Part shown: positions 7,149 to 18,985 of the stretch, piece after piece | Position numbering within the stretch: position 1 is the stretch's first letter | Layout: every line of letters begins with the position of its first letter | Source: Planctomycetaceae bacterium | GTDB lineage: Bacteria; Planctomycetota; Planctomycetia; Planctomycetales; Planctomycetaceae | Length of the DNA: 64,000 nt | Assembly (NCBI GenBank): GCA_021732415.1 | Contig: JAKFVC010000248.1 | Location: forward strand, 1-64,000 | Reading direction: 5' to 3' | The notes under the pieces: model-generated | The model's database searches: none | Seen by the model: the letters and a program-made list of their open reading frames with translations, nothing else | Told to the model about the DNA's origin: nothing | Translations under genes and position numbers: made by a program

Positions 7149-7223
7149 GTAGCCCGACTCTCTGAGTCGGGTGTGTATTGAATGATTGACGAAAAACTCC
7201 CGACTCAGAGAGTCGGGCTACGG
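7149..7223. repeat. Family B inverted repeat, copy 2
   Basis: The outer arms are GTAGCCCGACTCTCTGAGTC and the inverse ending AGAGTCGGGCTACGG, with a loop of about 29 nt. Each arm is also a local hairpin. It starts 2 nt after the preceding stop and ends 12 nt before the next start codon, so it fills the whole intergenic gap. Confidence 0.92.
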
Positions 7224-7235
7224 AAGAATATTAAG

Positions 7236-8036
7236 ATGAATCAGGGACCGGCGATTGACGCGGACTTGTTGAAGACCGCAGTCGCGGCAGCTTTGGCCGG
7301 AGGCGCTGTCCTCAAGGAATGGTTCCACAAAGTCACGGCCACTTCCAAGTCGTGTGCAGCTGACATCGTCACCGAGGCTGATGTGGCCTCACAGCGTGTC
7401 ATTCATGATCTAATCCTGCGACGTTATCCCGAACACAATTTCCTCGGCGAAGAGGGGCTGCAGCGAACCGACGGGAAGGATCCGTACCGCTGGGTCATCG
7501 ATCCGCTCGATGGAACCTCGAACTACTTCCACGGCTATCCCTATTTCGCAGTCTCGATCGGTGTCGAGTTAAACGGCGAACTGGTGGTCGGGGTCATTTA
7601 TGATCCGACGCGGGAAGAACTTTTCACGGCGCAGCTTGGTCAGGGTGCGTATCTCAATGACGAGCGGTTGCATGTCAGTCATACCGACCGGTTGGCTCAA
7701 TCGTTGCTCGTCGCCAGTTTCCCGCCCGGTGTCACGGCGGACGCTCCGCCGATTCAGCAGTTTTTGAGGATTCTGCCGCATTCGCAGACAATACAGCGCA
7801 CGGGTTCCGCGGCCTTGAATCTCGCCTATCTGGCGACGGGACGGCTCGACGGCTTCTGGTCGCACAGTCTGAAGGCCTGGGATATGGCGGCCGGGGTGTT
7901 GATCGTCCACGAGGCTGGTGGCAAGGTGACCCGGATGAGCGGCCAGCCGCTGGCTTTAGAGATTCCGGACCTTTTGGCCACAAACGGCTCGATTCATGAC
8001 GCCCTGCGGGATCTGCTGAGTGCTCCGATTCAGTAG
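7236..8036 (+). CDS. Inositol-monophosphatase-family phosphatase
   Basis: A Mg-dependent phosphatase of the IMPase/SuhB/histidinol-phosphatase superfamily (266 aa). Metal-binding motifs are clear: the first glutamate in NFLGEEGL, then WVIDPLDGTSNYFHGYP, and the C-terminal SLKAWDMAAGVLIVHEAGG. The substrate could be inositol phosphate, histidinol phosphate, NADP or 3'-phosphoadenosine phosphate; sequence inspection cannot decide. The frame is open upstream to 7182, but those codons lie in the family B repeat, so the ATG at 7236 is chosen. The ribosome binding region (GGAAGAATATTAAG) abuts the repeat, so the hairpin could affect initiation. Confidence 0.9.
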   Translation: MNQGPAIDADLLKTAVAAALAGGAVLKEWFHKVTATSKSCAADIVTEADVASQRVIHDLILRRYPEHNFLGEEGLQRTDGKDPYRWVIDPLDGTSNYFHGYPYFAVSIGVELNGELVVGVIYDPTREELFTAQLGQGAYLNDERLHVSHTDRLAQSLLVASFPPGVTADAPPIQQFLRILPHSQTIQRTGSAALNLAYLATGRLDGFWSHSLKAWDMAAGVLIVHEAGGKVTRMSGQPLALEIPDLLATNGSIHDALRDLLSAPIQ

Positions 8037-8353: not shown

Positions 8354-8389
8354 TTGCGTCCGCCTGTTTCTCCTGCAGCGAATAGTCTT

Positions 8390-11300
8390 ATGAATGTGCG
8401 GCACGGGATCGTCTGGCTGACACTCTTCTGCGTTTGGAACGCGGCCGGGTTGTTGCACGCGCAGACGCCGCCAGGGCCCAAGCCCGAAGCCGCTCCAGGA
8501 ACATCCGCTGAAAAGCCGACTCCCCCGAAGCCTGCCGGTAGTGACGTCATCCCGCTGAAGAACGCGAATGGTGAGGTCGTCCCCCTGTTGCGGACTCCCT
8601 TGCTGGAAGAAGTGCTGGCGGAATTAGCAGCGCGACGGCAACGCTTGGCCCCGGAACCGACTCAGTGGAGCGTCGCCGGAATTTCCCTGGTCGGCACGGC
8701 GGACGGCGATCACGCGGTCTTGCAGACGACGTTGCAAATTCAGCTCTTGGTCGACTCGAAGTGGATCAAGGTCCCACTGCGACTCACCGAAGCCACGCTG
8801 CAGGATCAATCCTACACGGGCCCCGGGGAAGCCACGTCCGGCGGGATCGATCCCGATCAGGGCTACCTGTGGTATTTGAAGGGGAAGGGGCTGCATGTCC
8901 TCAAGCTCAATCTCATTGTGCCGATCCGCAAGGAACTTCCGGCTCGTCGGCTGCAGTTGACTTTGCCGCCCACGGTGGTCAGCGAATTGAAGCTGCGCGT
9001 CCCGGTGCCGCGCCTCACCGCCAAGGCCGACGAACAGAGCCGGGCGCGGTTGATCCTGACCCCGACGGCTGACGGAGCGACCACCATCGAGATGCTCGGT
9101 CTGGGATCGCGGCTGGATGTGACTTGGCAGCCGCAGCCTGATTTGGGAACGGTGGAGACCGTACTCGAAGCCCGCACGGCCATCACGGCCACGGTCGACG
9201 GCCGGGCTGTGCTGATGGAAGCCAATCAACGGCTGGGGGCCTTGCAGGGCAACTTCAATCAGGTGCAAGTTCGCTTGCCTCGTGGCGGTGAGTTGCTGAA
9301 GGTCGAAGGGGAGCTCTACAAAGAGCACGCGGTGGATGCCAAGGATCCCTCGCAGGTGACCGTCACTCTGAAAGAGGCCGTGTCGAGTGCCTTCCCCGTG
9401 GATTTGAAATGGACGGTGCGCGTCGAGATCCCCGCGAAATCTGAACGCGTCCTATTGGAAGGTTTCGAAGTTGCCAAAGCCAAAATCCAGACGGGGCATC
9501 TCGCGCTGCGGTTGGTCGGTGACTATCGTCTCGAGAGGATTGACGGTCAGAATCAGTTCGTCCAGCGCGACAATCTGAGTACGCTCGAAAAAGCGCTGCC
9601 TCCCTTCCCCAGCCGCGAGGATGTGTCGAGTGCCTATTCGATCTTAAGGCAGCCCTTCCAGTTGGCGTTCAATCTGCAGCCGGAGAAACCGCATATCACG
9701 GTGAAGCCGCGGCTGTTTCTGGCGGTTAACTCGGATCGCATGGAGTTGTACGGCGAATATGACGTGCAGGTTTATCGCTGGGGTATTGAAGAGGTGAAGT
9801 TTGCCTGGCCCGGCTGGAAGGAAGAAGGCTGGAAGCTCGACCCGATCGCGCCGCCGAATCAAGTTGAAGAGACCAAGCTGGATGATCCGGCCGAGATTCT
9901 GGTGAAGCTGATTGAACGCAAGGTCGGGCCGGTGGTGCGTGTCAACGATCGCGCCTCGGCGACAGAACCCAAGCAATTCACGCTGTTGCTGCATGCGTCG
10001 CGGGCTTTGCCGGCGGGGCAGGCCGCGCAGGAATTTACGTTGCCCGGAATGCCCGGGGCCAATGTCATGCCGGCCGATTTTGTGATGGTACTGGCGGACA
10101 ATCTGGAAGCCGACTTGCGACCGCTGGGTGAAACCGTGTCGAGCCTGCAGACGGTCTCTCAAACGAATCTGGTCCCGCTCCCCGCGAACTTGGTCGACTT
10201 GCGCCGACGCGATTTTCGGCTCGATGCGGCCCGGGCGAAGTTCTCGGTGGCGACGACCCTGCAAAAGCAGCGGATCGGGACTCAGACGGACGTGGAGCTC
10301 AGTCTGGATGGGACGGAATTGCAGTTGCAGCAGCGGATTTCCTATGACGTCGCTTATGAGCGCCTGTCACAAGTTCTGTTGATGGTCCCAGAAAAGTTGG
10401 ACGGCCGGGTGACCTTCAGTGTCGCCGTGGATGGTCAGGCGGCGAATCTGGTCCCCATTATGCCCATCGATACCGGCTTGGTGGTGGGGACTCGTAAACA
10501 GAAGCGACTGGCCCTGGAAGCTCTGCGGATCGGGAAATTCGATGTGATCGTGCAGGGTTCGCTGCCGGTCAGTGCACCGATGGGGGGCGCGACGGCCACC
10601 ACCGATGTCCCCCTGGTACAGTCCTACGATGCCGAGTACACCAGCGTGCGAGTTCGCGTGCAGAAACCCAAGCGGCAACGGCTGACAATCGTCGGTGAAG
10701 GTTGGACCCCGCAAGCTCCGCAGAACGGGGCGTCGGTCTGGTTGGCGACCGCGAAGCAATCGGCTCTCGACCTGCAAGTGGAACAATCCGACGGAGCGTG
10801 GCAACAGGGTGTCGCCGTACCACGGTGCCTGGTGCAGGCGGTGTTTTCTCCCTTGGGAGAGGTCTACTGCCAGGCCCAGTATCAGCTCGCGGGGCAACCG
10901 ACTGTGCTGCGTGTCACGTTTCCCGCGGGGAGTACGCCGGGCCGGATTCGCTGGGGGCAGACTCCGCTGGAAGGGGTCCATATCCTGCCGACCGCGGGGA
11001 CTCCGGGTCAGTATCAGTTGACTCTTCCCGAGACCGAATCAGAGGACTCGGAACGGCTGTTGACGATTGCCTACCAGTTGCCGAAACAATCACCGCTGGG
11101 AGTGGGCGCCGAACGACGTCTGGCCGTCCCGGAGATCATGTCCGACGGCACGCAGACTCAGACCTTCTGGCAAATCCTGTTGCCGGCTGACCAGCACCTG
11201 TGGACCTTGCCCGCAGGGTTGACTCCCGAGTTTGACTGGCAGCGCGTCGGCGGCTGGTGGAGTCGCCTCCCTCGGCAATCGCCTGCAGAATTGGAGCAAT

Positions 11301-11800
11301 GGGTGAGTGGCTCGGCGCAGTCGAAGGCTTCAATCACCCCGGTGTTAGCCACCGGCAATCGTTACTTGTTCAGCAGCCTGGAAGGTTCGTCAGTGATGAG
11401 TTTCCGGACGCTCAGCGCTCCGTTGATCATCCTGATAGGTGCCAGTCTGGCGTTGGTGTTTGGATTCATCCTGGTCAATGTCCCGGCGGCGCGTCACGTG
11501 CTGACGTTCCTCTGGATCGGATTTTTGACGACGCTGGTCACGTTGTGGTATGCCGAACCGGTCCTGGTGCTCTTACAACCGGCGGGACTGGGGCTGGTCC
11601 TCGCGCTGCTGGCATCGGTGGCGCAGCGCTGGTTCAAGAAGTCGCGTGCGGAACCGGTGCTGACACTCGCCTCACCCAGCGAACAACTGGTCGCGACCTC
11701 ATCACGTGAAGAAGCCATTCCAGTGGGCCTGCCGTCCGAGCAAGTCACGCAAAGCCACCCTGCGGCATATCCAGTGACGGAGGCGGGAATTGGAATGTAG
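8390..11800 (+). CDS. Large exported beta-rich protein, 1136 aa
   Basis: Function unknown. The ATG at 8390 begins a signal peptide (MNVRHGIVWLTLFCVWNAAG, then LLHAQ). The mature part of about 1000 residues is rich in Val, Leu and Thr with an alternating pattern typical of stacked beta-sandwich domains; a recurring motif is LxLPxxxVSxLxLxVP near residue 200. The C-terminus has three hydrophobic segments (LIILIGASLALVFGFILVNV, HVLTFLWIGFLTTLVTLWYA, VLLQPAGLGLVLALLASV) followed by a basic tail, giving a membrane anchor with the bulk outside the cytoplasm. The next gene encodes a protein of the same style that shares the motif, so the two may work together at the cell envelope. An upstream in-frame ATG at 8354 lies against the repeat and is rejected. 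Confidence 0.88.
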   Translation: MNVRHGIVWLTLFCVWNAAGLLHAQTPPGPKPEAAPGTSAEKPTPPKPAGSDVIPLKNANGEVVPLLRTPLLEEVLAELAARRQRLAPEPTQWSVAGISLVGTADGDHAVLQTTLQIQLLVDSKWIKVPLRLTEATLQDQSYTGPGEATSGGIDPDQGYLWYLKGKGLHVLKLNLIVPIRKELPARRLQLTLPPTVVSELKLRVPVPRLTAKADEQSRARLILTPTADGATTIEMLGLGSRLDVTWQPQPDLGTVETVLEARTAITATVDGRAVLMEANQRLGALQGNFNQVQVRLPRGGELLKVEGELYKEHAVDAKDPSQVTVTLKEAVSSAFPVDLKWTVRVEIPAKSERVLLEGFEVAKAKIQTGHLALRLVGDYRLERIDGQNQFVQRDNLSTLEKALPPFPSREDVSSAYSILRQPFQLAFNLQPEKPHITVKPRLFLAVNSDRMELYGEYDVQVYRWGIEEVKFAWPGWKEEGWKLDPIAPPNQVEETKLDDPAEILVKLIERKVGPVVRVNDRASATEPKQFTLLLHASRALPAGQAAQEFTLPGMPGANVMPADFVMVLADNLEADLRPLGETVSSLQTVSQTNLVPLPANLVDLRRRDFRLDAARAKFSVATTLQKQRIGTQTDVELSLDGTELQLQQRISYDVAYERLSQVLLMVPEKLDGRVTFSVAVDGQAANLVPIMPIDTGLVVGTRKQKRLALEALRIGKFDVIVQGSLPVSAPMGGATATTDVPLVQSYDAEYTSVRVRVQKPKRQRLTIVGEGWTPQAPQNGASVWLATAKQSALDLQVEQSDGAWQQGVAVPRCLVQAVFSPLGEVYCQAQYQLAGQPTVLRVTFPAGSTPGRIRWGQTPLEGVHILPTAGTPGQYQLTLPETESEDSERLLTIAYQLPKQSPLGVGAERRLAVPEIMSDGTQTQTFWQILLPADQHLWTLPAGLTPEFDWQRVGGWWSRLPRQSPAELEQWVSGSAQSKASITPVLATGNRYLFSSLEGSSVMSFRTLSAPLIILIGASLALVFGFILVNVPAARHVLTFLWIGFLTTLVTLWYAEPVLVLLQPAGLGLVLALLASVAQRWFKKSRAEPVLTLASPSEQLVATSSREEAIPVGLPSEQVTQSHPAAYPVTEAGIGM

Positions 11801-11893: not shown

Positions 11894-12090
11894 GAGCCCC
11901 AACGGGGCGTGCTAGGCCAGCCCAGGGCAACGCCCTGGGTTTACATAGTAATGGGAATTGAAAGCCCTGAAGGGGCGAACTAGGTACAGCTAACATCAAG
12001 GCTAGTACGCCCCTTCAGGGCTTGGTCTTACTGCTTATACTGTTCCCAGGGCGATGCCCTGGGCTGGCCTAGTACGCCCCTTTGGGGCTC
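11894..12090. repeat. Family I compound inverted repeat
   Basis: A 197-nt palindrome built from several sub-hairpins. The outer GAGCCCCAACGGGGC pairs with GCCCCTTTGGGGCTC. Next come TAGGCCAGCCCAGGGC and the inverse, each arm with its own CCCAGGGCAACGCCCTGGG hairpin. The inner pair is AAGCCCTGAAGGGGCGAACT with its inverse. It fills most of the 402-nt gap between the two large exported-protein genes. Confidence 0.9.
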
Positions 12091-12202: not shown

Positions 12203-15200
12203 ATGTCCCAGACAAGAAGTGATCTCCTGACGCGGAATGGCGCACTCCCCTGGTTACGTGTGTGGAGCATAGCGTGCGCGCTTTTTTGTCTCACTTCCCA
12301 AGCCGCTCCAGCCCAAGTCCCTCCGCCCCCCAGTGAACTGGTTGACGAGGTCCGCTTACCGCTCGACAAGATCACCCCGGATTTATTACCCGACCGGGTC
12401 CCAGTCCCGCTGAGCGACTACCAGGCCCTAAAGAAAATCGCAGAGACCACGCGTGAGGCCCCATCGACAACGCGCCTGCTGAAGGCCCAATACAGTGCGG
12501 TCTACAAAGACCACCGTCTGACTGACGGTCAACTGACCTGGTCATTTGAGAATACCAGTCGCATCGCGCGGACTTGCACCGTTGAGCCGCTGGGAATTGC
12601 GGTCCGCGATCTGAAATGGGGTGACCAGCCGGCAGTCTGGGGCACGTCGCCCGCGGGGCGTTTCGAAATCTTGCTGGATCGACCCACCGGCGAACTTCTG
12701 GGCCGCTGGGAATTGAGCGGCAAGACGGTCGGCCAGCATGATGAATTCGTGCTCAATCTGCCGCGGGCTACTGTGTCGCAAGTGGTTCTCAAAGTCCCTG
12801 CAGGGGCAGTCGTGACGGCTCTCGATCATTCGGTGGTCGCGGGCGCGACGCAGGATGGCATCACGCCCTGGACCATTGCTCTGGCAGGCAATAAGGAATG
12901 CCGCATTGTCATTCATCAGGCGGCCCCCGCTGGGTCGGCGACGCCCCTGATCCTTGTCCAGCATGACGCACTCTACAAGTTGCGTCAGGACGGTCTGCGG
13001 TTTCTGACCAACTTGCGATTGGAAGTGACCCAGGCACCGGTGCGTGAGATTCCCATTTGGGTCGATCCCGAGCTCGAGATCTTTTCGATCACCTACGGCA
13101 ATGAAATTCCGTTGCCGTGGCAAACAACCGCCGTCGACGGCCGGCAGCGTCTGCTGGTGCAACTGCCCGACGCGCTGTTGGGAACAGGTCGTGTGTTGAG
13201 ACTCAGCGGAGTGTCTCCCATCAAGACCGATGTGGATTGGAAGCTCCCGAATGTCATGGTGGCGGGGAGTGCCCTGGTCGAGGGGCAGACCGTATTACAA
13301 CTGACGCCCCCGCTGCAATTGCAGGATCTCAGCAGCACGGGATTTCGTCAGGTCGGGGTTGAAACCAGTGCCGCGCGGGATGATCTGCTGACCTTCAAGC
13401 AGTTCCGAGCGGATGGTGTCATGACGGTCAAATTGGGCAAACCGCGACCGCGGATTCTGGCGCGGGTGCTCAGCGATCTGCAGACCAAATCTCCCGACTG
13501 GACCTGTTTCACTCAGCTGCAGTTGACGGGTGCCGAAGGGGCCGCGTTCTCGGTGGAGTGCCGCATCCCGGCGGGCTGGGACGTCATCGATGTCCGTGAT
13601 CCGAGTGCCCCGAAACTCGAATGGAACATCACGACCACCGCCGAAGGGCAACGCTTACTCTCGCTGCAATTCCTGGAAGCTTTGACCCCCGACCGGCCGC
13701 GCACCATCGAAATCGACGCCCGTCGCAGCGCGGCGACCGGCGATCAAACGTTCGTCGTGCCGGCGTTCGAGCCCTTAGGCGTTGACGACCTGGGGATGCT
13801 GGTCGTCGTCAATTCGGCCGCCGATGTGCGACCCGTTCTGGAATCGGGTACGTCCTTTGAACCGTGCGAGCCGGCGGACCTTGATCCGGAATGGCTGAGT
13901 TCCAAGTTCTGGAAAACACCGCTGACGGAACGGACTCCGGTTCCGCTCCTGCTGCGTTTGAACGGCAACACGGCCGAGGGACATTTTTCGTTGCAGTCGC
14001 TGCAGACACCAGTTGAGGTCTCTGCGGAAGTGCAGGTTGATGTCACATCAGTCCGGTTGACCAAGACCGTGCGCTTAAAGGTGATTCCCCGACATGGCAA
14101 GACGGAACGCGTGCTGGTTTATCAAAGTGAACCGGGACCTCAATTGACCTGGACGTTGCTGGGCACACCCGCCAAGCCGATCGAAGCTCGAAAGCTGCCG
14201 GCCTTTCGACACGCGGCGTGGGACTTGCCCACCTCGGGCGAATTGTGGGAATTGCGGTTGCCGCAATCTCAGTCGACTGCGTTCGAACTGGAAGGCGTGC
14301 GAGCTCGGGGATTGACTCCCACGGGCCGCCTGGGACTGGTGTTTGTCCCGCAGGCGCAAGCGTTTCATGGACGAGTGACCGTTAAAGCACCGGTGGACCT
14401 GGGTCTGGAACTGACCGCCTGGCACACCGAAGCAGACGGCATTGCGAACGCGGCCGCAGCTCCGCTGGAACGAGTGTGGACTTGGCATCAGCCGTCGGCA
14501 GCGCTGCAATTTCAGACCAGGGATGCGACCGCGTTGGCTCCCGCGCCCGTCATTCGTCGCGTAGCACTCCAGGCGCGGTGGACCGTGGAGCCGAACTCGC
14601 ACGACTACTATGTCGCCCAATTGGAATTGGGGTCGGGATTCAACGGGCGTAAGTTTCAATGTACATTGCCCGATGAAGCCGAACTGACCGATGTGCAAGT
14701 CGATGGTCAGTCGCTCCAGTTCCCCCCGCCGGGGCGTGGCCTGCCGATCGTGTTGACCAATGTCACCGACGAGCAGATCGTGGCCATTACTTATCGCGCT
14801 CCCAGCCGCGGGCTGTTACATCCCCGCTGGCGTTCGGTGTTGCTACCGAAGCTCGATATCCCCGTCTTGCGGTGTGATCTGGAACTGCTGACCCCCGACG
14901 GTTTCCGATTGGGAAGTGAATCACGCGGGATCGTACTCAAATCGACGGCGAAGCAAATTTCGACACTTCAGCGGATGTTTGGTCCGCTGGGCCGATCCGG
15001 TCAGGAGTTGTTATTCAATCCGTTTTCGATCACGAGTTGGTCACGATTATGGGACCAACAATCGGAGGTTGAACCCCTGCCGCAGAGCCCCGACGAACAG
15101 ATCACGGCAATAAAAAAGGTGAGTGGGAGTGTAGCGACCGACACGGCCGTCCCCTCTGAACTGACCGGTTGGAAAATCTGGCGCGGTTCGGCCGCCATGC

Positions 15201-18200
15201 TGCCGGAACGTGTCGAGCTGTGGCTGTGGTCGAACCGGCAGGCCACCAGCGCTGCGTGGTTGGGGTTCTGGACCTTCTTGTTGCTGGGGACCACGCTGCG
15301 GCTGGCACGCGTCCCCCATCGCGCGGGAATGGGAATGCTGGCATTGGTCGCGGAAATCCTGCTGACCTTCATTCTGCCACCGCTCCCCGCACAATTGGTG
15401 GGAGGTTGCCTCGCTGGCACCTTGCTGTCGTTCCTGTGGCCACGGAAACTCATTTGCCGATCTGCACCCGCGTCAGAGAATCAACCTTACATACCCCAGG
15501 GGAGCACGCATTCTTATCGCCCGATCTCGTCACGCATCTGGGCACCCCTCACAGTATTAATCCTGATCAGTCTGTGTGGCGGCTTAGCCTTCGCACAACC
15601 GGTCTCGCCAACCAATGGCAATGGTTCAGGAACAAGTTTGCCGCGAGTCATCATTCCCGTCGATGAACGCAACCAACCGCTGGGCCAGCAGCCGTTGGCG
15701 TATGTTCCCGAGCGTCTGCTGAAAGACTGGACGGCCCAGCAAGTCGCTCAACAACCACGTGCCGCGTGGCTGCTGCGGACGGGGGAGTACGTCTTACAAC
15801 GTGACGCCACTCAGCAGATCGCCCTGACCGCGCGCTATGAAGTCACGGTCTTATCCGATGCCGCCGAAGTCGAAGTCCTGATCCCGTTATCCGGAGTCAA
15901 CTTCGGTGGTGAGAAAGCCTGCCTTGTGGATGGCCAGCCTCATCCGCTGCTGACTCATCCCGATTCGAAAGCGTTGTCGATTCGCCTGCCAGGGGTGGTT
16001 TCGCCACCCGAAGCACCCTCGATGCCGGAGAACGCCGAGGCACCGAACAGTCCCGCGACCATGTCGGCTGCCAGTCGTTCGTTTCGCATTGAATTCCAGG
16101 GTTATCCTGTGATTCAGGTTGTCGGCGACCGGCAATGGATGGAGTTTACGCTGCCGCGTCTCCATGCGGCATTGTGGACGTTGCAGAATGATCACCCCGA
16201 TTCCCCCTGGACGGTCAAGACGGATGAAACGGTCTATACGGTCGCCCCAAAACAAGTCTGGCCGCGCGAGTTGGGACCAACTACGAAGCTGCGGATCGAA
16301 CCGTCCGCCCCGGTGACCACGACGGTCGCCAAGCCGGCCTTGGAGGCCCGACTGGCCTTGCTGGCGGACGTGCAGCCAGCCGTTAGCCAATTGCACTATC
16401 AAGTCAGTTATCGCGTGTTGCAGGGGCAGGTCTCGAGTGTCAGTTGGCAACTTCCTGCGGGCCTGGCTGTGCGCGATGTCTCGGGCCCCGAAGTGTTTGA
16501 CTGGCATCTGACACCTGCCGCTGGGGGGGCCTCTCGTTTGCAGGTCGACCTTCGCAGTCCTGTTTCCGAAGGCTTCCGAGTCCAGGTGGAAGCGTTGCTG
16601 CCCAACGATGGTCCGCCGTCGCAGTTGATCATTCCCCCCGTGCTGTTGCTGAATCCCGCACTGGATCCCCTGCGTCCCGCGCAGGCACTCGTCGCGATTC
16701 GGACCCCTTCGGAGTTCGTCCCGGAAACGAGCCCGGAAGCCGGCGCGCAGATCGCGTCCGCCACGGTCGACAATTTCATTACTGAATGGGGAAAGACCGG
16801 CGTCGATCAGAAGCCGCAGTTGGCGTTTGCGTTGCTCGATCCTGCCCCGTTGAAGGTCGGCCTCAAGCCACTGCAGGCGCAGCGCGTGGTCCGCATGACG
16901 GCCATCGGGGTCTTGGGTAGCCGGCGTCTCCAATGGAGCGTCAATGCCACGATCGAAGTCCAGACCGCGGCCGCCTATACGCATCAAATCGAGATCGATC
17001 CACGCTTGACCGTAACGAGTGTCAGCATCCAGGAAGATGCGGCGAACCGACTGCTGCGCTGGACCCGGACCGGCAATGTCCTGCACGTCTTCCTGCGTGA
17101 CAAGACGACGGGGACTCAGACGCTGACCTTACAAGGAACGATGCCGACGCAGGTGCCGCAGGAGATGGCGTTGCCGACCATTCGATTCTTAGATGCAACC
17201 GTCGTAGACGCCAAGCTGCAGCTCTACCAGGAACCCGACCTCGAAGTGGAACTGGCCGATCCCGACAAGTGGGAACGCCTTGAAGTCCCGTCAGAATTGC
17301 GTCTCGGGGCCGCCCGTAACTTGCTGGTAGGTCGTTTCAAGTGGAATCAGGACGCCGGCGCATTTGTGGTGCGCGCGGCGCAAAATGAGCCTGTGTTGAA
17401 CTACTCGGCGGTGACTTCGCTGCAACCGCGCGACGGACGCTGGAAGTTGACCACGAATCTGCTGTTTGAAGTGCTGCAGGGACATGGATCGCAATTCTCC
17501 ATCCGCGTTCCCCCGGAACTCCCGTTGGTGCGCGTTGATGCCGCCGATGTCCGGCAACTGCTGGAACGCGAAACAGATGGCGGCCAACGGATCGTCCTGA
17601 TCCCGCAGGCCCCCATCCGTGGACGGTTCGTTGTCCAAGTTTCGGGTGAGGTCAACCTGCCCGCGGGTGGTCCGGTCGTCATCCCCGAGATCGTGGGATT
17701 GAACGCCACGCGCCAGGATCATTTCCTGGTCCTGCCTGGCGATGGTCAACTGACGGTGGACTCGCGCACGTCGGGAATGGTGGCCGAATCCCTGCCCGAA
17801 GAATTAGGCAAGTTGTTGCCCACGGAGCTGCAGGGGATCACTCGGCTGGAATATCGCGGTTCTCCGGGAACGTGGACGGTCACCATTCCGCGACGTCAGG
17901 AAGATCAGCCGCAAACCGGAGTCCTGTGGAGCGAAACCCAGATCTGGTGCGGTCCGACGCGGCACGTATCGGGCCGCACCTCGATCCTCCTGGGTCCGCA
18001 GGAGAATGAACAGGTTGATCTGCATATTCCGCTCGGCATCGACCTGCAGGGGGTCCTGCTGGATGGAGAATTCATTCCGCACACACCCAAGCTGCAACAT
18101 CTGCGGATTCCCTTGACCTTCCCCCAGGCCGGCCACGCGATCACGTTGTATTGGACCCAGGACACCGCCTCGTTTGATCGGTTCTACAATCAAGCGGGAT

Positions 18201-18985
18201 TCGTCTGGCCCCATGTTTCCGGGAAAAGTGTCAGGGAGGAATATGTGACCTTAACCCCCCCTTCGGGATTCCGTGTGTACGCGCAGCAGGGGAAATCGGT
18301 CGAACGCATTCAGGTCCAGCTGAGCGAACTCCAAATGATGCTGGAGTTGATGCAGCAACGGGCGGCCGGCAGTCCGGCACCGCAGGATTCGCAGTGGCTC
18401 TATTTGCATCGTCAAGTCGGCAGCCTGATCAAACGCCTGCTGACAGAACCGCAGTTGCGAAAACAACAGGGAGAATTAGCCGAACGATTTGCAAAACTGC
18501 AGACGCAGTTTGCTCCGTGGGAGCAGTCCACTGTCCCCATTCCCGTCGAGACTGCAGCGATTCCCGGCGGTCTGTCCCCCGCGATCTTGCGTTCATTTTC
18601 GAGCCTGGAAGGGAACCTCGCCGGACCGCATTCACTTCTGGTCAGGCTGACAGCGCATGACCCCGTAGACAGCAAGTTGCAGGTCTCAATCATTCATGAA
18701 TCGCTGTGGAGCGTCACGCTGGGCGTGGGCTTGGCGATGGTCGTCCTGTTGCTCGTGTGGCCCCTGTTGCGCTGGAAGTTCCCGGAATGGCTGGCCGAAC
18801 AACCGGCTGTCGCGTGGTTGTTGCTCGGAGCCATCTGGTGGCCCTGCCTGACCCCTTCGTGGTTGGGACTCGTGTGGCTCGGCCTGGCGGCATTCTATGG
18901 AGTGCGTCACGCTTGGCGAACGACTTCGTCGAAGAACAACTCACTACCAGAAGTCGATCAGAGCCTACCATCGATGCAGGTATAG
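12203..18985 (+). CDS. Giant exported protein, apparent tandem fusion, 2260 aa
   Basis: Function unknown. A signal peptide lies at about residues 15-38 (SIACALFCLTSQAAPAQ). A first beta-rich part runs to about 1010, then a membrane region (AAWLGFWTFLLLGTTLRLA near 1017; MLALVAEILLTFILPPLPAQ near 1045; a further segment to about 1080). Residues about 1110-1132 look like a second complete signal peptide (SSRIWAPLTVLILISLCGGL then AFAQ), followed by a second beta-rich part of about 1050 residues. The C-terminus has another anchor (VTLGVGLAMVVLLLVWPLL near 2170, and a pair at 2203-2236). A short helical stretch (LSELQMMLELMQQRAAG) precedes the last anchor. There is no internal ribosome binding site or Met near 1110, so the halves are translated as one chain. 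The N-terminal part shares the LxLPxxxVSxxxLxVP motif with the preceding protein. Confidence 0.88.
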   Translation: MSQTRSDLLTRNGALPWLRVWSIACALFCLTSQAAPAQVPPPPSELVDEVRLPLDKITPDLLPDRVPVPLSDYQALKKIAETTREAPSTTRLLKAQYSAVYKDHRLTDGQLTWSFENTSRIARTCTVEPLGIAVRDLKWGDQPAVWGTSPAGRFEILLDRPTGELLGRWELSGKTVGQHDEFVLNLPRATVSQVVLKVPAGAVVTALDHSVVAGATQDGITPWTIALAGNKECRIVIHQAAPAGSATPLILVQHDALYKLRQDGLRFLTNLRLEVTQAPVREIPIWVDPELEIFSITYGNEIPLPWQTTAVDGRQRLLVQLPDALLGTGRVLRLSGVSPIKTDVDWKLPNVMVAGSALVEGQTVLQLTPPLQLQDLSSTGFRQVGVETSAARDDLLTFKQFRADGVMTVKLGKPRPRILARVLSDLQTKSPDWTCFTQLQLTGAEGAAFSVECRIPAGWDVIDVRDPSAPKLEWNITTTAEGQRLLSLQFLEALTPDRPRTIEIDARRSAATGDQTFVVPAFEPLGVDDLGMLVVVNSAADVRPVLESGTSFEPCEPADLDPEWLSSKFWKTPLTERTPVPLLLRLNGNTAEGHFSLQSLQTPVEVSAEVQVDVTSVRLTKTVRLKVIPRHGKTERVLVYQSEPGPQLTWTLLGTPAKPIEARKLPAFRHAAWDLPTSGELWELRLPQSQSTAFELEGVRARGLTPTGRLGLVFVPQAQAFHGRVTVKAPVDLGLELTAWHTEADGIANAAAAPLERVWTWHQPSAALQFQTRDATALAPAPVIRRVALQARWTVEPNSHDYYVAQLELGSGFNGRKFQCTLPDEAELTDVQVDGQSLQFPPPGRGLPIVLTNVTDEQIVAITYRAPSRGLLHPRWRSVLLPKLDIPVLRCDLELLTPDGFRLGSESRGIVLKSTAKQISTLQRMFGPLGRSGQELLFNPFSITSWSRLWDQQSEVEPLPQSPDEQITAIKKVSGSVATDTAVPSELTGWKIWRGSAAMLPERVELWLWSNRQATSAAWLGFWTFLLLGTTLRLARVPHRAGMGMLALVAEILLTFILPPLPAQLVGGCLAGTLLSFLWPRKLICRSAPASENQPYIPQGSTHSYRPISSRIWAPLTVLILISLCGGLAFAQPVSPTNGNGSGTSLPRVIIPVDERNQPLGQQPLAYVPERLLKDWTAQQVAQQPRAAWLLRTGEYVLQRDATQQIALTARYEVTVLSDAAEVEVLIPLSGVNFGGEKACLVDGQPHPLLTHPDSKALSIRLPGVVSPPEAPSMPENAEAPNSPATMSAASRSFRIEFQGYPVIQVVGDRQWMEFTLPRLHAALWTLQNDHPDSPWTVKTDETVYTVAPKQVWPRELGPTTKLRIEPSAPVTTTVAKPALEARLALLADVQPAVSQLHYQVSYRVLQGQVSSVSWQLPAGLAVRDVSGPEVFDWHLTPAAGGASRLQVDLRSPVSEGFRVQVEALLPNDGPPSQLIIPPVLLLNPALDPLRPAQALVAIRTPSEFVPETSPEAGAQIASATVDNFITEWGKTGVDQKPQLAFALLDPAPLKVGLKPLQAQRVVRMTAIGVLGSRRLQWSVNATIEVQTAAAYTHQIEIDPRLTVTSVSIQEDAANRLLRWTRTGNVLHVFLRDKTTGTQTLTLQGTMPTQVPQEMALPTIRFLDATVVDAKLQLYQEPDLEVELADPDKWERLEVPSELRLGAARNLLVGRFKWNQDAGAFVVRAAQNEPVLNYSAVTSLQPRDGRWKLTTNLLFEVLQGHGSQFSIRVPPELPLVRVDAADVRQLLERETDGGQRIVLIPQAPIRGRFVVQVSGEVNLPAGGPVVIPEIVGLNATRQDHFLVLPGDGQLTVDSRTSGMVAESLPEELGKLLPTELQGITRLEYRGSPGTWTVTIPRRQEDQPQTGVLWSETQIWCGPTRHVSGRTSILLGPQENEQVDLHIPLGIDLQGVLLDGEFIPHTPKLQHLRIPLTFPQAGHAITLYWTQDTASFDRFYNQAGFVWPHVSGKSVREEYVTLTPPSGFRVYAQQGKSVERIQVQLSELQMMLELMQQRAAGSPAPQDSQWLYLHRQVGSLIKRLLTEPQLRKQQGELAERFAKLQTQFAPWEQSTVPIPVETAAIPGGLSPAILRSFSSLEGNLAGPHSLLVRLTAHDPVDSKLQVSIIHESLWSVTLGVGLAMVVLLLVWPLLRWKFPEWLAEQPAVAWLLLGAIWWPCLTPSWLGLVWLGLAAFYGVRHAWRTTSSKNNSLPEVDQSLPSMQV

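Follow-up and report, generated by a model that had tools for sequence, protein, structure and literature searches.

A planctomycete gene with two paralogous exported modules in one conserved frame and a predicted signal peptidase site at their junction

The window analysed was the stretch of 64,000 nt at positions 1 to 64,000 of contig JAKFVC010000248.1 (Planctomycetaceae bacterium, GenBank assembly GCA_021732415.1), and its nearest named relatives, a MAG of Planctomicrobium piriforme and one of a Planctomycetaceae bacterium, place it in Planctomycetota near Planctomicrobium. Gene B was a single open frame with an ATG start (Table 1). Its hydropathy profile showed a mid-protein hydrophobic cluster, an extra segment at approximately residues 1108-1135 and a C-terminal cluster. 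The N-terminal signal had APA|Q at residues 35-38, and LAFA|QPVSP was located inside the protein with AFAQ at residues 1129-1132. The first-pass annotation, made from the letters alone, had described a 2260-aa exported frame with an N-terminal signal and two ectodomains, and a second signal-peptide-like segment that ends in AFAQ near residue 1130 and is followed by QPVSP; both descriptions were borne out, with AFAQPVSP beginning at residue 1129. The anchor that it had placed after the first half was present but consisted of three helices by hydropathy and not of one. Each half had also been described as laid out like the neighbouring 1136-aa protein (gene A), and every module indeed comprised a signal, an ectodomain and a hydrophobic C-terminal cluster. 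Gene A encodes 1136 aa from the ATG at 8390 and 1148 aa from a mechanically called TTG at 8354.

Table 1. Features of the A-B locus in the window (positions of the window; strand +, forward)
Feature	Position	Strand	Basis
Inositol-monophosphatase-family gene, directly upstream of A	7182..8036	+	Pfam PF00459, E 9.7e-70
Gene A, paralogue with one module (1136 aa): signal peptide, beta-rich ectodomain of ~960 aa and three helices at the C-terminus	8390..11800	+	Hydropathy, hhalign to B1 and B2
Dispersed palindromic repeat between A and B, two inverted ~90-nt arms	11894..12090	.	Sequence; 63 matches across its genome, inverted partner arm present
Gene B, fused precursor of two modules (2260 aa)	12203..18985	+	Open frame
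Signal peptide at the N-terminus of B1, with a cut predicted at A37|Q38 (APA|QVPP)	12203..12313	+	Sequence, hydropathy
Ectodomain B1 (~975 aa)	12314..15238	+	Profile comparison
Three-helix membrane cluster of B1, residues ~1018-1080	15254..15442	+	Hydropathy, alignment, loop charges
Basic cytoplasmic loop, GST-like motif (IPQGSTHSYR), n-region of internal signal	15443..15532	+	Alignment, loop charges
h/c-region of the internal signal peptide (residues 1111-1131), with an SPase I cut predicted at A1131|Q1132	15533..15595	+	Alignment, motif counts
Ectodomain B2 (~1030 aa)	15596..18682	+	Profile comparison
C-terminal membrane helices of B2	18698..18910	+	Hydropathy

The ectodomains were compared by hhalign with module profiles of 29 B and 31 A proteins, the membrane parts being excluded. 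B1 aligned with B2 at E=2.2e-28 over 853 columns, A with B1 at E=3.4e-32 and A with B2 at E=3.6e-35, while controls with column-reversed profiles gave E values of 0.11-0.26. The alignments were colinear across approximately 850 columns at an identity of only 13-16%, and on this profile evidence A, B1 and B2 are colinear paralogues. The comparison of both halves with the 1136-aa protein had been set beforehand as the test of the claim that gene B is a fused pair of related precursors, and its result supported that claim. Unrelated halves were ruled out by the B1-B2 value against the reversed controls, and the idea that gene A was duplicated in this genome only was rejected.

Searches of Pfam and NCBIfam with A and both halves of B produced no profile match above the curated cut-off. 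When 20 members of B and 14 of A were scanned with Pfam, all matches were weak and limited to single members, the best being TgpA_N in one A member (E 2.7e-5). Profile searches of the PDB with A3 and A2 revealed no meaningful relative; the top match, a stretch of MS2 coat protein (E 0.012), was taken as chance. AlphaFold2 predictions for B1 (with its helices) and B2 from an 8-row alignment (the window with L033-L035) had mean pLDDT values of 33.9 and 38.9, which were too low for use, and the likeness of B1 and B2 rests on profile comparison.

With query P0001, matches at E≤0.001 were obtained in 37 of 59 related genomes, and within the family 33 of 36 other genomes had a match, usually as one long frame or as a frame cut by a contig end. 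A profile search of 392 genomes drawn from across the phylum gave matches in 111 at E≤1e-5. A total of 80 regions were fetched and their frames scored with three module profiles. This produced 82 loci with a strong match: 54 with a complete long frame (including three duplicate fetches, L076, L077 and L097, some genomes that contribute two loci with two versions of the pair, and a few loci, L081 and L094 among them, that were counted by length only and differ in layout), 16 cut by the end of a contig or stretch, 10 others and 2 split. One of the other loci, L080, encoded proteins of 1635 and 1266 aa in a different layout. Overall, the fused frame recurred in independent assemblies across Planctomycetota, usually straight after A. 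The B frame at L064:5155-9408, also counted with the others, stopped at 1418 aa inside the second ectodomain and away from the contig end (frameshift or truncation). A second, longer A+B pair (about 1100-1200 and 2700-2800 aa) was found in L069, L071 and L074, also in genomes that have the first version, and pieces of it were located in the window's own genome on two contigs (G000:C26 and G000:C124).

Among the 55 measured A-B pairs, which include the duplicate fetch L097, the genes overlapped by 4 nt (ATGA-type) in 20 pairs and were separated by 0-30 nt in 12 and by more than 30 nt in 8; the start was uncertain in the remaining 15. The gap was 402 nt in the window compared to 9 nt in L036 because the palindromic repeat listed in Table 1 was inserted, and this repeat may break the translational coupling of A and B in the window. 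A homologue of the inositol-monophosphatase (IMPase) gene preceded A on the same strand at 22 of the 82 loci, within the family, and is probably a conserved neighbour there and not part of the A/B machine. A VWA/YfbK gene preceded A or B in nine deep loci (L079, L082, L088, L089, L096, L100, L109, L115 and L117). All nine VWA proteins were scanned and four had an N-terminal match to zf-HC2, a domain typical of anti-sigma factors, which was above the Pfam cut-off in L096, L100 and L109 and below it in L089. In seven of the nine loci a sigma-factor-like (ECF) gene lay further upstream on the same strand (one member scanned), and the deep loci may hold a sigma/anti-sigma-VWA-ectodomain operon. 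In the window no ECF sigma or zf-HC2/VWA gene adjoined A or B, the neighbours being the IMPase gene upstream and an FGE-type gene followed by NfeD downstream. A role of A and B in sensing or stabilising the cell envelope is a tentative and rather doubtful suggestion, drawn from the sigma/VWA neighbours of deep relatives, which the window lacks.

The search for split versions among relatives, which the first-pass annotation had proposed, found them in two lineages. Three adjacent genes encoded 1128, 1237 and 1138 aa in L078, and 1202, 1419 and 1470 aa in L091. At both loci the second gene ended in hydrophobic segments and the third opened with a signal of its own (VRA|EE and TLA|K, respectively). 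In a midpoint-rooted tree of 111 modules and 833 columns, the first, second and third split genes grouped with A, inside B1 and inside B2, respectively, nested among fused proteins, with moderate support for the B1 nesting (0.94-0.955) and lower support for B2. Since the split modules nest among fused ones, the fused state looks ancestral and fission secondary, with room for doubt left by the supports and the rooting.

In the alignment of 29 B proteins, the segment after the three helices ended in a signal-peptidase-like motif in relatives that were mostly 17-28% identical. The strict motif required [AVGSTLIC]xA and then Q, D, E or N, inside a span of 26 residues. It was present in 23 of the 29 internal segments (truncated B frames were left out of this set, including L066 and L067, which cross the junction, and the match in L056 lay by eye outside the likely c-region) and in 21 of the 263 membrane helices counted elsewhere in these A and B proteins (Fisher 7e-17, a value that overstates independence, as do the other p-values of these counts, since the rows are related by descent). 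The N-terminal signals carried the motif in 42 of 60 cases, with no difference from the internal segments (p=0.45). With Q required at +1, the counts were 18/29 for internal segments, 7/263 for helices and 35/60 for N-terminal signals. A trained weight matrix, which was noisy and scanned too short a range, set the internal segment less clearly apart from helices (p=3e-4) and did not separate it from two helices of A (p 0.07 and 0.14). Of 26 deep B proteins, 13 had the strict motif, compared to 33 of 225 other segments (p=9e-5); as judged by eye, the automatic choice of segment took the wrong helix in some of these proteins (L074, L106), and the count was kept unchanged.

The mean number of K+R per 10 residues was 3.22 in the TM1-TM2 loop, 0.03 in the TM2-TM3 loop, 1.43 in the loop before the internal signal and 1.06 after it, where acidic residues were in excess. 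These charges fit helices running out-in, in-out and out-in, followed by an N-in signal, which would place both ectodomains outside. Hydropathy and loop charges thus predicted the internal hydrophobic segment to be N-in/C-out after an odd number of helices, and two exported modules were found in one uninterrupted frame. The cytoplasmic loop directly before the internal signal (15443-15532) carried a PxGSTxSY/F motif, and this GST-like motif was present in 18 of 29 B relatives. Its conservation may mean that the loop and segment left over on B1 have a function.

In a clade of five loci (L088, L089, L109, L115 and L117) the internal segment ended in LPGC, (ASA), SLGC, ATGC and AAGC, respectively, L089 having an AxA site in place of Gly-Cys. 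A profile search with this clade in 29 and 198 genomes added three members that cross the junction, with LNGC, LGGC and AGGC. Gly-Cys came after the internal segment in 7 of the 8 members and after none of the 76 other hydrophobic segments in these proteins (p=1.8e-9), a comparison in which three of the seven cases were fetched after the lipobox idea was formed and the broad Gly-Cys rule was adopted once a stricter lipobox pattern had failed to catch LNGC. Among the 370 hydrophobic cores of type-I A and B proteins, 18 were followed by Gly-Cys. The lipobox-like boxes were not all canonical at -3/-2.

We consider it likely, with good confidence from the sequence comparisons, that gene B encodes a polyprotein that signal peptidase I (signal peptidase II in one clade) would cut into two anchored ectodomain proteins. 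Export would begin at the N-terminal signal with the translocation of B1, and the three helices would leave the chain in the cytoplasm. The basic loop and the internal signal peptide would then restart translocation and bring B2 back outside, and signal peptidase I would cut after A1131. The predicted products would be made one to one, B1 held by its helices and B2 with the new N-terminus Q1132 and its own C-terminal anchor, while in the lipobox clade signal peptidase II would free B2 as a lipoprotein. Together with A, encoded just before, this would give three related membrane-anchored ectodomains in fixed proportion. A, B1 and B2 probably form an assembly, a fixed ratio and joint assembly being what we infer here. 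Strong support for the predicted cleavage at the junction, which the first-pass annotation had put forward as a possibility, comes from the conserved motif, from the positive-inside topology and from the variant with an internal lipobox.

A quite different origin, in which the fusion is a sequencing or assembly error or a lineage-specific accident without function, could draw on the two lineages with split genes. Nevertheless, such an origin is refuted by the conserved frame, which was seen in the same family and in independent assemblies phylum-wide, and it retains hardly any probability; the sequencing error that the first-pass annotation had named as a possible refutation was checked and not upheld, and assembly error was rejected.

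An uncut B, with the internal segment as a fourth membrane helix (signal anchor) and the ectodomains covalently tethered, is unlikely in our view, though it predicts the same topology as cleavage and the strict motif was absent in 6 of 29 relatives. The conserved loop motif could also serve a standing cytoplasmic face, and taking the loop as a mere n-region leaves that motif without explanation, a point against the cleavage reading. Against a permanent tether, the signal peptidase I motif was retained as often as in N-terminal signals, B2 opened with its own signal where the genes are split, and one clade switched to a Gly-Cys lipobox. This last point was weighed heavily because an ordinary membrane helix has no reason to swap signal peptidase motifs. 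Separate translation of B2, in addition or instead, from a start inside the frame upstream of the internal signal appears highly improbable: Met occurred in the loop stretch of 13 of 29 relatives and the A/B genes overlap as in translational coupling at many loci, but 16 of 29 relatives including the window had no Met in that stretch, by a count restricted to Met. Within the cleavage reading, the wider picture is somewhat favoured that in a phylum-wide polyprotein system the junction switched between signal peptidase I and II sites, that B2 would be freed as a plain anchored protein in most lineages but as a lipoprotein in one of them, and that the fusion was dissolved again in some lineages.

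To our knowledge, polyproteins of bacterial cells that are cut at an internal signal peptide are very rare, while such cleavage is well known in viruses. In the glycoprotein polyproteins of pesti-, phlebo- and flaviviruses, internal signal sequences are cut by signal peptidase; these are viral proteins cut by a host enzyme, and no homology with gene B is claimed. In Bradyrhizobium japonicum, the FbcH precursor of cytochrome b/c1 is encoded by one gene and gives two membrane proteins by a signal peptidase cut at an internal signal peptide. Gene B resembles this case as a bacterial single gene for two membrane proteins, predicted to be parted at an internal signal peptide. However, the halves of FbcH are unrelated subunits of a known enzyme, whereas those of gene B are paralogous giant ectodomains that occur phylum-wide with an internal-lipobox variant, and in Pfam neither half of B matched cytochrome b or c1, so that no homology with FbcH was found. 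The ECF sigma factor, zf-HC2 and VWA-YfbK operons adjoin A-B genes in some deep planctomycete lineages; they are absent beside the window genes, and A and B themselves match no such domain. A literature search of partial coverage on internal lipoboxes and internal signal peptides in Planctomycetes found no report of the A/B system. With A and B, a large family of giant cell-envelope proteins that had no annotation came to light in Planctomycetota, and some lineages of the phylum show a link between it and ECF sigma factors. A similar layout is that of mammalian IGSF1, in which a tandem-duplicated large Ig-rich ectodomain with a helix is divided into two anchored halves, one of them without apparent function, by a co-translational signal peptidase cut at an internal signal sequence (PMC9162367). 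Gene B shares with IGSF1 the duplicated ectodomains, the internal signal sequence and the two anchored halves; IGSF1 belongs to the eukaryotic ER system, and the likeness is one of layout with no sequence relation claimed. Beside these systems, gene B would be a deeply conserved case of a rare bacterial kind, and its natural series of signal peptidase I site, internal lipobox and split genes makes the question of why two exported proteins share one chain directly testable.
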